DNA of 64,000 nt from NCBI GenBank assembly GCA_003161435.1, contig PMOS01000005.1, positions 62,001-126,000 of the forward strand. Direction: 5' to 3'. The first letter of the stretch is position 1. Every line of letters begins with the position of its first letter. The notes beneath the pieces were generated by a model. That model made no database searches. It saw only the letters and a list, made by a program, of their open reading frames with translations, and was not told where the DNA came from. This document shows, one piece after another, positions 23,966-28,482 of this stretch. The position numbers and the translations under genes were made by a program. The DNA comes from Vulcanimicrobiota bacterium (GTDB lineage: Bacteria > Vulcanimicrobiota > Vulcanimicrobiia > Vulcanimicrobiales > Vulcanimicrobiaceae).

Positions 23966-24592
23966 GTGGCTCACGCAGAGGCGTACAAAGACCCCGGGAC
24001 ACCGGACGAACAAAGCCGGCGAACCTTCATGGCCAACGCGGTCATCGCGCTGGGCGGAGTGATCAGCCTGGGAATTGCCATCCCGGTCGTGGCGTCGCTA
24101 CTCCCCGCCGCGGGGACGGATACCGACCAGTGGTCGGGGCTCACGCCCCAACAGGCCGAAGCGTTCAAAAAGGCGACCAACCAGCCGGTGAAGGTCGTCT
24201 TCGACGTCCATGACGTGAACGGGTATTTCGGCGCAATCGACGTCGAGCAGTTCGTCTGGGCGGTGAAGTCGACCGACGAGCAGCTGCGCAGCGAGCGGCC
24301 CGAGCTCTTCGCGACCGAGAAACCTCCGTACCCGGTACTGAACATGGGCTTCGTGATCTTCAGCCCGATCTGCCCGCACCTCGGCTGCAAGTACGCCTGG
24401 AATCAAGCGCAGAACAAGTTCATCTGTCCGTGCCACGGCTCGGTCTACAGCGAGCTCGGAAAGCACGAAGCCGGACCGGCGCTGCGCGGGCTCGACCCGT
24501 TGCCGATGCGGAACTATCAAGGGAAAGTGCAGATCACATGGATCGAGTACGCACAGAACTCGCCGCAGCTGATCGTCCAAAAGGTCGGATGA
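23966..24592 (+). CDS. qcrA: Rieske iron-sulfur protein of a cytochrome b-c complex
   Basis: The Rieske subunit accepts an electron from menaquinol at the Qo site and passes it to cytochrome c. The 208-residue protein has a twin-arginine signal/anchor ([16 protein letters not shown], residues about 16-31), then the 2Fe-2S ligands in CPHLGC and CPCHGS (near residues 137-158). It is thus a probable Tat substrate, and tatA/tatC are in this window. The start is GTG at 23966 after a GAGGAGAGAGA ribosome binding site. The cytochrome b-c gene follows after 10 bases. Confidence 0.94.
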
Positions 24593-24602
24593 GGCGGACA
24601 CG

Positions 24603-26126
24603 ATGCTGACTTGGCTCGACCAGCGCACCGGATTGGTCACCCTGACCAAGGACTTCCTCACCGAGGACGTTCCCGGCGGCGCTTCCTACTGGTACGCGTT
24701 CGGCAGCGCGACGCTGTTCGCGATGATCCTGCAGATCGTCACCGGCATCTTCCTGTGCTTCTACTACGCGCCGTCGACCGCCACAGCGTACGAGTCGACG
24801 AAGTTCATCATGGACAAGGTCCCGGCCGGCCATCTCGTCCTCTCGCTCCACTACTGGGGCGCTTCGGCGATGATCGCCTTCGTCGCGATGCACTTGCTGC
24901 AAGTGCTGCTGTGGGGCGCGTACAAGAAGCCGCGCGAACTGCAGTGGATCGTCGGCGTGATCCTGTTCATCATCACGCTGGTCCTCGGTTTGACAGGCTA
25001 CTTGCTCCCGTGGGATCTCAACGCGCTGCTTGCGTCGCGCGTCGCGATCAACGTCGCCGGCAACGCGCCGATCCTTGGCCCCGCGGTCCAGCAGTTCTTG
25101 CAGGACGGCACCGGGATCACGACGCTCACCATCAACCGCTTCTTCGGCATCCACGTCTGGCTGATGCCGGCGATGCTGGTGCTGCTGGTCGCCTTACACC
25201 TGATGATCTTCCGCTGGAACGGCCCGGCCGGGCCGCCGATCGACGAGGCGCCCAAGCTCAAGCCGGGCCGCTTCTGGCCGGATCAAATGTTCATGGACAC
25301 CGTGTTGTCGTTCGCGATGTTCGTGATCGTGGTGGCACTCGCGGTGTGGGCACCCGTGCCGCTCGACGACAAGGCCGACTTGAACAACTCGCAGTTCGTG
25401 CCGTACCCCGCGTGGTATTTTCTCGCCTTGTACGCGCTGCTCGACGTCGTGGGCGCATTCCCGCCGGCGATCGTGCAGGTCGCGACGCTGTTCGCCACGA
25501 TCGTCGGCCCGACGCTGCTCATCCTCGTGCTGATCGTCCTGCCGTTCGTCGACCGCAACCCGTCGCGCCGGCTGTCGCGACGCCCGTGGGTGCTGGGAAT
25601 CACCGCGCTGGTGATGGCCGGCGCTATCGGCCTGAGCTGGGTCGGCCAGCGTAACGTCTACGAGCAACAACTCGCGCACGGCATCATCGGACCCAACGCC
25701 ACGGCAGCCGCCGCCACCAACAGCAGCGGCGCACTTCAAACCGGTCCTCAAGGGACGGCCGGATCCGCCAGCGGCAGCACCGCTTCGGGCACGACGCCGG
25801 CGACGGCCGGGCCCGGCGCGGCCGTGTACTCGCAGAGTTGCGCCGGCTGCCACGGCGCCACGGGTACCGGCGTTGCCGGTCAGTTCCCGCCGCTGGCCGG
25901 CAATCCGGTCGTCGTCGGCGATCCGAGCAAGGTGATCCCCATCGTGCTCAACGGGCTCAATGGCAGCATCACCGTCAAGGGTCAGACCTACAACAACACG
26001 ATGCCGCCCTGGAAAGGCACGCTCAGCAACAAGCAGATCGCCGACGTGATCACGTACATCCGCAACGCCTGGGGCAACAAAGCGAGCACGGTCACCGCAG
26101 CGCAGGTCGCAGCAGGCGGCAAGTAG
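24603..26126 (+). CDS. qcrB: Single-chain cytochrome b - cytochrome c (QcrB-QcrC fusion)
   Basis: This 507-residue protein joins a full-length cytochrome b to a c-type cytochrome. The b part has two histidine pairs in the four-helix bundle (H at about 81/95 and 181/196), then the subunit-IV-like helices. The Qo-site motif normally read as PEWY appears as PAWYF near residue 270, so the usual glutamate is alanine. After an Ala/Ser/Thr-rich linker (about 365-405) a class I haem site CAGCH appears near residue 417, with a likely methionine ligand in NTMPPWKG near 467. The Rieske gene is just upstream and a strong terminator follows. The fusion implies a compact menaquinol:cytochrome c oxidoreductase. 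Confidence 0.92.
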   Translation: MLTWLDQRTGLVTLTKDFLTEDVPGGASYWYAFGSATLFAMILQIVTGIFLCFYYAPSTATAYESTKFIMDKVPAGHLVLSLHYWGASAMIAFVAMHLLQVLLWGAYKKPRELQWIVGVILFIITLVLGLTGYLLPWDLNALLASRVAINVAGNAPILGPAVQQFLQDGTGITTLTINRFFGIHVWLMPAMLVLLVALHLMIFRWNGPAGPPIDEAPKLKPGRFWPDQMFMDTVLSFAMFVIVVALAVWAPVPLDDKADLNNSQFVPYPAWYFLALYALLDVVGAFPPAIVQVATLFATIVGPTLLILVLIVLPFVDRNPSRRLSRRPWVLGITALVMAGAIGLSWVGQRNVYEQQLAHGIIGPNATAAAATNSSGALQTGPQGTAGSASGSTASGTTPATAGPGAAVYSQSCAGCHGATGTGVAGQFPPLAGNPVVVGDPSKVIPIVLNGLNGSITVKGQTYNNTMPPWKGTLSNKQIADVITYIRNAWGNKASTVTAAQVAAGGK

Positions 26127-26207: not shown

Positions 26208-26474
26208 TTACTCGCGCCGCTTCGCCTCGAGCGCTGACGGCGAGAGGTTCGACGCAACGTCGCGGTAGAGGTGCCGCATCGCGTTGACCATCAGCGAGCC
26301 GACGCGAAAGACGCCGTCGCCCGAGAACTGAACGCCGCTCCAAGGCATCGACTGATGCCGCTGCACCAGCAGATAGGTATCCGCGCCGACGGCGTAGATC
26401 GCGAACTGATCCGACTCCGCGATCGGCTTCTGACCCTCGAGCGTGCTCTGATCGACCCGGTCGATAAAGTTCAT
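26208..26474 (-). CDS. Small hypothetical protein
   Basis: I do not recognise this 88-residue protein. It has no signal peptide or membrane helix. The middle is beta-rich (FAIYAVGADTYLLVQRH) and the C-terminal part is helical and charged. It starts at ATG 26474 and converges on the qcr operon across the terminator at 26158. Codon use matches its neighbours, so it is likely a real gene. Confidence 0.5.
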   Translation of the reverse strand: MNFIDRVDQSTLEGQKPIAESDQFAIYAVGADTYLLVQRHQSMPWSGVQFSGDGVFRVGSLMVNAMRHLYRDVASNLSPSALEAKRRE

Positions 26475-26591
26475 TATTGGTCACCGATCCTCTGGATGAT
26501 GCCGTAGAAACGCTCCTCGATCTATATAGAATCGGTACGCGGTGAACCTTCGTCGTGCGTGCAAAGTAGCGCGCTTATTGGATTGTGGCTT

Positions 26592-26802
26592 GGGAGCGGC
26601 CACTCCCCAGGCACGATGGTTTCGGGCGCAACGCAGTGCACGAATCGTGCCGGAGGGGCGGGCGTCGTACACTGCGTCAGCAGGGCGTTTCGTAGCGAGC
26701 GGAGCCCGGAGGGCGAGAGCGAGCGAAGAACCGAGCGAACGGAACCGCAGGATGCGGCGGAGTGAGCGTCCCAGCTGACGCAGGGTACGACGCCCGTCCC
26801 TC
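26592..26802. ncRNA. Candidate structured RNA or palindromic element in a gene-free region
   Basis: The 349 bases between 26475 and 26823 hold no convincing gene but many inverted repeats. GGGAG/CTCCC (26592-26607) and GGCACGAT/ATCGTGCC (26610-26651) come first. Then two 29-base arms (26653-26681 and 26774-26802) pair with one G-U and one mismatch. Between those arms sit three further small hairpins: GCCC-GGA-GGGC (26704-26714), CCG-AGCGAA-CGG (26731-26742) and CCGC-AGGAT-GCGG (26745-26757). The layout is a closed multibranch structure. It matches none of tRNA, tmRNA, RNase P, SRP or 6S RNA as I know them. It could instead be a mobile palindromic unit; the transcribed strand is unknown. Confidence 0.4.
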
Positions 26803-26823
26803 TGCCACCGACCTAACGGAACG

Positions 26824-28482
26824 TCATCCGTGCGAGCATTCGCCGCCGTCAACATGTAGGAGGACCGCCCGCGGGCGCTGCTCGGTGGGCGTTTGCATGA
26901 CGATGTCGGCGTTGCGTTGCAGCGAGCGAGCTAGATCGACCAGGCGTTGTGCATCCTGTGGGCGCACGACGATCCAATGATCGCCGTCGACGCAGATCGT
27001 CGACACGAAGCCTGCGTTGTTCTTGATGTCGCGCACCGGCGGCGCCGTGTAGAAGATCAACCCGTTGCCGCCGCTCACGCCGCCGATCGCCACCGTATCG
27101 CCTGGTTTGCGAGCGGCGTCGATCGTGCGCGCGATCGGCGGTATCGGCTTGAGGGGTTCGGCGACCGGTTCGGCGACGAGCGCGATGAACAGCACGAGCG
27201 CTCCGCTGGTGACTGCGAGCACGTACGGTGACCATGCCGCGGTGCTGCGGCGCGCGATCGCAACGACGGTCAACAGCGAACCTGCCAGCATCGCGACGCC
27301 GAGCACCGCGAGTTGTTCGTTGACCGCGACCATGTCGAAGTCGAGCCGGTTGCTGCGCGAGAAGATGCCGATCGCGAGCGCCACCAACCCGACGAAGGCC
27401 GGGATCGTCGCAGCCGAGATCACCGCGGCCCGTCGATCCTCGCCGGCGCGAACGCGCTGGAACCACAGCGCGACGAGGATCGCCAGCGCGGGCAGCATGA
27501 GCGCGACGTAGTTCGGCAACTTGGTGTTTGCGAAGCTGAAGAAGAGAAACGGCGCAACGGTCCACACGATCGCGAGCCGGGCGAACGCGCCGTCGGCCCG
27601 GCGTGCGGCGCGCAGCGCGGCGGCGACGGCGACCGGGACGAACGCGATCCACGGAAAGAAGCCCAGGATCACGACGGGGATGTAGTACCAGATGGGACCG
27701 GTCTGGTTTTCGATCACGCCGGTGTACCGGCCGACGGTGTAGTGACCGATCAGCTGGACGATCGCGCCGGGACCGACACGGGCCGCCAACGCGATGAACC
27801 ACGGCAGCGTGACGGCAACGTACGCGAGAGCTGCCAGTGCAAACGCGCGACCGCGCGGTGCGGCCAAGCGTCCCGCGCGCCGTTCCCACACCACCCACAC
27901 GGCGACGACAAGGAGGGCGATCACCGGCGCCACCGGTCCCTTGGCCAGCGTCCCCACCGCTAGCGCGAGGGCGCCGCAGATGAACGCCGTGTCGCGCCGC
28001 CGCGGGCTGCCGGACGGTTCGAAGGCGCGATACCACCACAGCACGGCGGCGGTGACGGCAAAATCGAGCAGCGCGTCCATGATCGCCAGGCGTCCGACGA
28101 TCGCCTGCATCAGGCTGGTCGAGAGCACGATCGCGGCGACCATCCCGGCGCGCCCGCCGGCGATCCGCGCCGTCGCGTAACCGACGGTGCCGCCCATCGC
28201 GATCGTCGCGAGCGCCGAAGGGAGCCGCACCGCGAAGGCCGTCGGCCCAAAGACGTGCGCGAACAGCGCCGCGATCCAGAAGTACAACGGCGGCTGCACG
28301 TACCACTCGAACCCGTTGAGGTGCATGACGACCCAGTCGTGGGTGAGCAGGATCTCGCGCGCGACCTCTCCGTACGTCGTCTCGCTGTTGTCCCACAGCG
28401 TGCCGATCCCCAGGCCGGGTAGCGTGACGAGCGCAGCAAAGAACGCGCCGAGTAGGGCTGCGCGCGCGGGGACAGATGGCAT
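26824..28482 (-). CDS. ArnT/PMT-type (GT83-like) membrane glycosyltransferase
   Basis: This membrane glycosyltransferase of 552 residues has about eleven hydrophobic segments. The first extracytoplasmic loop carries LWDNSETTYGEVAREIL, matching the D/E-containing catalytic loop of the dolichyl- or undecaprenyl-phosphate mannosyltransferase superfamily (consensus D-E-x-x-Y-x-x-x-A/x-E-M/I). A WYVQPPLYFW segment follows, like the KPPLxYW motif of ArnT-type enzymes. It should use a polyprenyl-linked sugar to modify lipid A-like or other envelope targets; the target is unknown. ATG 28482 starts just before the first helix and is 19 bases from the divergent SirC-HemC-HemD gene. Confidence 0.8.
   Translation of the reverse strand: MPSVPARAALLGAFFAALVTLPGLGIGTLWDNSETTYGEVAREILLTHDWVVMHLNGFEWYVQPPLYFWIAALFAHVFGPTAFAVRLPSALATIAMGGTVGYATARIAGGRAGMVAAIVLSTSLMQAIVGRLAIMDALLDFAVTAAVLWWYRAFEPSGSPRRRDTAFICGALALAVGTLAKGPVAPVIALLVVAVWVVWERRAGRLAAPRGRAFALAALAYVAVTLPWFIALAARVGPGAIVQLIGHYTVGRYTGVIENQTGPIWYYIPVVILGFFPWIAFVPVAVAAALRAARRADGAFARLAIVWTVAPFLFFSFANTKLPNYVALMLPALAILVALWFQRVRAGEDRRAAVISAATIPAFVGLVALAIGIFSRSNRLDFDMVAVNEQLAVLGVAMLAGSLLTVVAIARRSTAAWSPYVLAVTSGALVLFIALVAEPVAEPLKPIPPIARTIDAARKPGDTVAIGGVSGGNGLIFYTAPPVRDIKNNAGFVSTICVDGDHWIVVRPQDAQRLVDLARSLQRNADIVMQTPTEQRPRAVLLHVDGGECSHG

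Follow-up and report, generated by a model that had tools for sequence, protein, structure and literature searches.

The segment from 26648 to 26807 (plus strand) of the window, the 64,000-nucleotide stretch of DNA that was analysed here, belongs to a dispersed repeat family that is so far undescribed. This is probably a REP/MITE-like element, non-autonomous and about 140-160 nt long, which would work as a folded single strand: a hairpin of 22-38 bp, free in sequence, that carries a conserved three-way-junction tip. As its copies are gained or lost as a unit and yet keep their fold by matching mutations, it appears to be a mobile gene-end element of a large and so far unrecognised kind. The parts of the window copy and its immediate surroundings are as follows.

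26648 to 26807, plus strand: whole element, 160 bases, covariance-model match of 152.7 bits
26653 to 26691, plus strand: 5' arm of P1, the long closing helix; sequence varies among copies, pairing is kept
26764 to 26802, plus strand: 3' arm of P1, partner of 26653 to 26691
26680 to 26775, plus strand: conserved core, a three-way junction, 84-94% identical among most copies of the window's own genome
26699 to 26722, plus strand: motif conserved across phyla, GCGGAGCCCGGAGGGCGAGAGCGA, containing hairpin 1
26704 to 26714, plus strand: hairpin 1, GCC-C-GGA-G-GGC, inside GCGGAGCCCGGAGGGCGAGAGCGA
26745 to 26757, plus strand: hairpin 2, CCGCAGGATGCGG, of variable stem length and sequence, loop N-[G/C]GA-N
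26824 to 28482, minus strand: neighbouring PMT/ArnT-like glycosyltransferase gene, its stop codon toward the 3' end of the element, gap 16 nt
26582 to 26617, minus strand: short hairpin with edge motifs ATCGTGCC ... GCCACAAT as in the big element, head-to-head with it and without the core

Folding of 26592-26802 as RNA gave -121.8 kcal/mol (z = -7.1), and none of 200 dinucleotide shuffles was equally stable. A sequence-only reading of this block had proposed that two 29-base arms pair with each other. They do, and the helix is longer than claimed, about 39 bp (26647-26685 with 26770-26808, 87% complementary). The multibranch layout of enclosed hairpins is present as described, and this inner part (about 26680-26775) is the best-conserved stretch of the family; the purine-rich GAGCG units pointed out there are the purine-rich strands of the conserved core. 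Two further hairpins said to precede the long arms do exist, but they lie outside the conserved element. The block was rightly called gene-free: its codon usage is non-coding, and a 124-aa minus-strand ORF across it was passed over by a codon-model gene finder. For the family, a protein-coding repeat was rejected, as indel lengths are not divisible by three and the codon model speaks against coding. The first of the two preceding hairpins lies in 26582-26617 and is possibly a mini-relative of the big element, although it is a single case.

A covariance search and a count of copies, both suggested by the same reading, revealed a dispersed structured family. The window's own genome is a 3.83-Mb draft (G000), in which blastn found about 17 further places, with more in relatives. 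Twenty-five copies of the genus were aligned and used to build a covariance model, which recognised 20 dispersed copies in G000, plus six reverse-strand shadows. Within the class, 78 of 117 genomes, from 30 of 48 genera, contained matches. The E-values of the model are rough, and a bare long hairpin also raises the score; the distant class copies that were examined do contain the core. When 84,980 species genomes were scanned with the strictest part of the core, GCGRAGCCNGGANGGCGRGAGCGA, 68 stretches were found. The majority belong to Candidatus Eremiobacterota (WPS-2), a result that also assigns the window to this phylum, and the others, with the reservation that labels of metagenome bins may be wrong, to several MAGs of Planctomycetota (among them one of Pirellulales, with numerous copies), a Kuenenia-labelled MAG, Deltaproteobacteria-labelled MAGs and several unnamed bins. 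The stretches inspected from outside Eremiobacterota have a long closing helix of lineage-specific sequence around the branched core, except for contigs ending at the element and for a Micromonosporaceae match (L247), which lacks the long helix and is probably due to chance.

In the Pirellulales MAG (L206:3073-3634, L213:352-894, L240:1287-1854, L231:108-565) the elements are often arranged as direct tandem copies at intervals of about 300-400 bp. Their arms are nearly identical and the spacers between them partly conserved, which suggests recent amplification of a larger unit. One copy in G000 contains an assembly gap (NN at L013:4700-4710), as expected for long palindromes.

The family could not be assigned to a known one. 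A search of Rfam gave no family above the gathering threshold; the matches, to generic long-hairpin miRNA families, were all far below it, in agreement with the first reading, which had recognised no known RNA. The element had no match in collections of plasmids, phages and viral contigs, and a plasmid or phage origin was rejected on this ground. No description of the repeat was found by a literature search, from whose reach most subscription papers were excluded.

Within G000, the core of about 95 nt is mostly 84-94% identical among copies, and the flanking arms differ strongly yet are complementary within each copy. The consensus derived from the 25 genus copies comprises 46 pairs, 36 of them with changes on both sides. 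Pairing according to this consensus is kept in 95.8% of the cells, with 257 doubly changed cells against a mean of 69 after shuffling; none of 500 shuffles showed covariation comparable to that observed, and none of six slid versions came near. P1 measures 22-38 bp (median 31). It leads to the junction and two further arms, the first of which contains the hairpin GCC-N-GGA-N'-GGC and a purine-rich internal loop that is conserved. In hairpin 1, N and N' covary and GGA is present in all aligned copies; in the second arm the stem length varies around the loop N-[G/C]GA-N, and the loop of hairpin 2 has CGA in many copies. The unpaired loops and internal loops of the core are conserved across phyla, and a U.G pair is fixed in the junction helix of one subfamily. 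These comparisons show that the fold is conserved through compensatory changes. Of the "new structured RNA" that the first reading had proposed, structure and novelty thus appear to stand, in view of the strong covariation and the lack of an Rfam family.

Some copies have stayed in place for a long time. Orthologous positions, with gene identities according to Pfam, are found behind infB in six species, behind rpsI in three and behind ffh in two, in addition to others, so that these positions have been kept across species. Comparison of the six infB copies gave two-sided changes in 33 of 61 pairs and pairing in 97.5% of the cells, and the inner helices covary as well. Covariation among copies that are orthologous indicates that the structure is maintained in place, and the infB copy is old. 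Where its neighbour was called, a same-strand gene follows, probably rbfA.

The two strands of the element are not equivalent. Among 89 copies of the genus, mismatched positions in P1 were G.U on the plus strand in 77 and A.C on the plus strand (equal to G.U on the minus strand) in 17, counted in an alignment without strand preference. More plus-strand G.U occurred in 48 copies and more A.C in 7. The plus strand folds better than the minus strand in 81 of the 89 copies, and in all 89 when only the core is considered, although the minus strand is also a strong folder (mean -106 kcal/mol). As the copies are related, nominal probabilities for this strand test are optimistic. The excess of G.U together with the better folding shows the plus strand to be the one under pairing constraint, with selection acting on it as a single strand, either RNA or DNA.

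Placement relative to genes was examined by calling the neighbours of the 89 copies with a codon model. Copies sit at the 3' ends of genes, and their plus strand is antisense to the gene concerned. In 80 of 88 cases the 3'-side neighbour points at the element, and the distance from its stop codon to the edge of the model has a median of about 12 nt. For the 84 copies with both neighbours called, only the 3'-side gene ends within 40 nt in 49, only the 5'-side gene in none, and both in 9; the layout is convergent in 52, tandem with the element antisense in 24, tandem in the sense direction in 7 and divergent in 1. Head-to-head pairs thus lie mostly between convergent genes, each of which has its own element. 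An apparent exception, a copy facing the 3' end of a tRNA-Leu gene at a distance of 48 nt, indicates that a stop codon is not required for placement. Outside Eremiobacterota the same placement was seen in several copies but not in all, the Pirellulales MAG being mixed. The polymorphic copy of G008 (see below) lies behind a tRNA-Leu gene (L111:2526-2818), and a terminator-like hairpin with a T-run is present between the tRNA and the element.

Such placement raises the possibility that the element is part of the 3' UTR of the adjacent gene and is transcribed in the sense of that gene, its hairpin ending or protecting the mRNA or affecting translation termination. The median gap of about 12 nt agrees with this, as does the retention behind infB, rpsI and ffh, and the minus strand folds strongly too. 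E. coli REPs are reported to reduce translation when they lie no more than 15 nt from a stop codon (PMC12306157). However, the wobble asymmetry and the stability of the core indicate the opposite strand, one copy is at a tRNA gene, and the infB copy is followed by a gene on the same strand, a position in which a strong terminator would be unexpected. The T content behind P1 is not raised (11% and 19% on the two strands against a background of 20%), there is no U-tract on either strand, and no terminator-like site was found in the region of the window. An intrinsic terminator was rejected because both strands lack the U-tract, and a 3'-UTR element in the wider sense seems unlikely to us.

Replication readily subjects long inverted repeats to template-switch (quasi-palindrome) correction, and pairing might be kept in this way, without selection, in an inert palindromic repeat. 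The lineage-specific occurrence of many copies would fit. Such correction would, however, give no preference for G.U on one strand, and the unpaired and internal loops of the core have remained uncorrected and conserved across phyla; moreover, inner helices also covary, and placement and orientation are strict. We consider an inert repeat improbable. That the arms could partly stay complementary through template-switch mutation rather than selection counts against the preferred mobile gene-end element.

A third explanation is a multicopy gene for a trans-acting small RNA, with a plus-strand transcript and GGA loops serving as protein-binding sites of the CsrA type. This is consistent with the plus-strand fold and its conserved purine-rich loops, including the GGA of hairpin 1, and CsrA is encoded in 93 of the 117 class genomes. 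On the other hand, no conserved promoter or other sequence for the plus strand was found upstream of orthologous copies, the strict placement at gene ends would be left unexplained, and CsrA is present in element-free genomes (genus g32) while it was not found in G065, a 93% complete genome with 8 copies. A CsrA-sequestering RNA was rejected, as there is no pattern of co-occurrence with CsrA and many second loops have CGA. A gene for a trans-acting small RNA appears distinctly improbable.

The preferred account of a REP/MITE-like repeat takes the element to be mobile, and relatives do differ in its presence. The window copy is absent behind the orthologous glycosyltransferase gene in nine relatives, one of which has an ordinary terminator-like hairpin at that spot. 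Two other copies, one behind an AAA+ ATPase gene (L012) and one behind ppk (L015), are absent at the orthologous gene ends of ten and seven relatives, respectively. These three copies, found in G000 only, favour gains. At a site that is empty in one species and filled in another, G003 has TCCTGCCTGG-CCCGCCAAGC and G008 has TCCTGCCAGG-[about 138 bp]-CCCGCCAAGC; the flanks align on both sides, and there is no target duplication at this single clean site. Copies thus come and go whole, with no duplication of the target, although the G003/G008 difference, compared without an outgroup, could be a precise loss. The edge consensus is ATCGTGCCGG ... CGCCAC, and the motifs TGCC.GG and GCCA flank most elements of the genus. 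Since both motifs are present at the empty G003 site, they represent either the target or a footprint. A palindromic mobile element had been named as the main alternative to a structured RNA. Dispersed copies, lineage-specific presence and a clean empty site support it, although the target duplications that the reading expected are absent from that site; the two readings are mutually compatible.

Between two head-to-head elements, a bare palindrome of the edge motifs without hairpin or core, ATCGTGTCCGCCACGAT (L148:1703-1719), is possibly an unoccupied target. A second dispersed repeat of the genus, a short REP-like palindrome around CCCTGAGCTTGTCGAAGGG (L113:2360-2476, with dozens of matches in G008; also L110, L114 and L272), shares intergenic spacers with some of the large elements. 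ATCGTGCC was rejected as a separate genome-wide repeat because the sampled sites look almost all coding (Ile-Val-Pro codons). The genome has 87 exact occurrences of ATCGTGCCGG and 2 of the reversed pattern; given the coding nature of these sites, this control is misleading and the abundance is a codon artefact.

REPs are short palindromes that lie mostly downstream of genes, often as inverted pairs, and are regarded as non-autonomous mobile elements (PMC3733652, PMC3116915). The present family resembles REPs in location and pairing, but it exceeds them by far in size, and its branched core is conserved. The best-supported account is that of a non-autonomous mobile element which is recognised by its structure and retained wherever a hairpin downstream of a gene is of use. 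Like REPs, BIMEs and REPINs (GTAG and CGTC families), the family comprises many extragenic palindromes that lie for the most part downstream of genes, in convergent or tandem arrangements; REPs are also believed to act as RNA hairpins (same sources). REPs measure 20-40 bp with stems of 6-13 bp, in contrast to 140-160 nt with arms of 22-38 bp and a 95-nt core here, and no GTAG/CGTC tag was seen at the edges. REPs of the GTAG type go with a RAYT/Y1 transposase in the genome, whereas PF01797 is absent from 10 of 11 genomes of the genus, including G005, which is a single contig and 99% complete. For this reason a RAYT/Y1 transposase was rejected as the mover.

Bacterial MITEs and structured repeats (Correia/NEMIS, ERIC, bcr1, RUP, BOX) have conserved terminal inverted repeats and usually target duplications. 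The present element shares with them its size, intergenic location, folding, many non-coding and non-autonomous copies, and presence or absence at orthologous sites. It differs in that its arms are the least conserved part, with only short edge motifs in common within the genus, and in the lack of duplication at the one clean site. HEARO and omega RNAs are structured mobile nucleic acids, with many ORF-less copies in the case of HEARO, and group IIC introns insert in association with gene 3' ends or terminators. Structured mobility, the link with gene 3' ends (IIC) and the lack of target duplication are common features, but neither structure is recognisable here, Rfam gave no match, and no accompanying ORF came to notice. 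Integron attC sites lie behind gene ends with the folded strand antisense to the gene, conserve structure rather than sequence and carry R boxes (RYYYAAC/GTTRRRY). Despite this shared geometry, a recombination site of the attC kind is highly improbable, as the conserved tip and variable arms reverse the attC arrangement with its conserved base, the edges are TGCC/GCCA, and copies occur singly or as head-to-head pairs behind housekeeping genes (infB, rpsI) with no cassette arrays.

For the preferred mobile gene-end element, the following steps can be envisaged: an enzyme acting in trans would recognise the folded plus strand (ssDNA or RNA) and place the element behind gene ends; copies that persist would be kept because a stable hairpin at a gene boundary is useful; and the conserved tip would let the hairpin block or mark transcripts, which is the weakest step of the proposal. 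Since the strand under constraint runs antisense to the gene, the hairpin is most likely to be of use in transcripts that arrive from downstream, and it would most likely form in those entering the gene from its 3' side, either antisense or by read-through from a convergent neighbour. The mixed placement in the Pirellulales MAG and the lack of a conserved plus-strand promoter upstream of orthologous copies count against this explanation. We suggest, tentatively, that the family represents a new class of mobile elements, in which the unit of selection is the structure itself (the free-sequence hairpin with its conserved three-way-junction tip). Such elements may be recognised in folded form, as RNA or ssDNA, and inserted with a fixed, antisense orientation behind the 3' ends of transcription units, the target not being duplicated; the class would extend over Eremiobacterota and Planctomycetota at least, and its copies would repeatedly have been kept because they function at gene ends. 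Within a single family, mobility is found together with a strictly antisense position at gene ends and with strong selection on structure at orthologous sites of essential genes, and this in phyla that have seen few experiments. This joins two questions that are usually separate, the role of dispersed bacterial palindromes and the origin of structured RNAs, and makes testable whether a dedicated structured element guards 3' gene boundaries in bacteria and what enzyme moves this element in place of the known REP transposase.

In the window, an 88-aa minus-strand ORF (26208-26474) without a Pfam match lies between the cytochrome and glycosyltransferase genes of G000; in relatives, other genes come after the glycosyltransferase gene. 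As judged by eye from the translations, the cytochrome gene is a single 507-aa ORF (24603-26126), cytochrome b-like and fused to a C-terminal cytochrome c domain (CAGCH motif), and a Rieske-like protein is encoded beside it (23966-24592).
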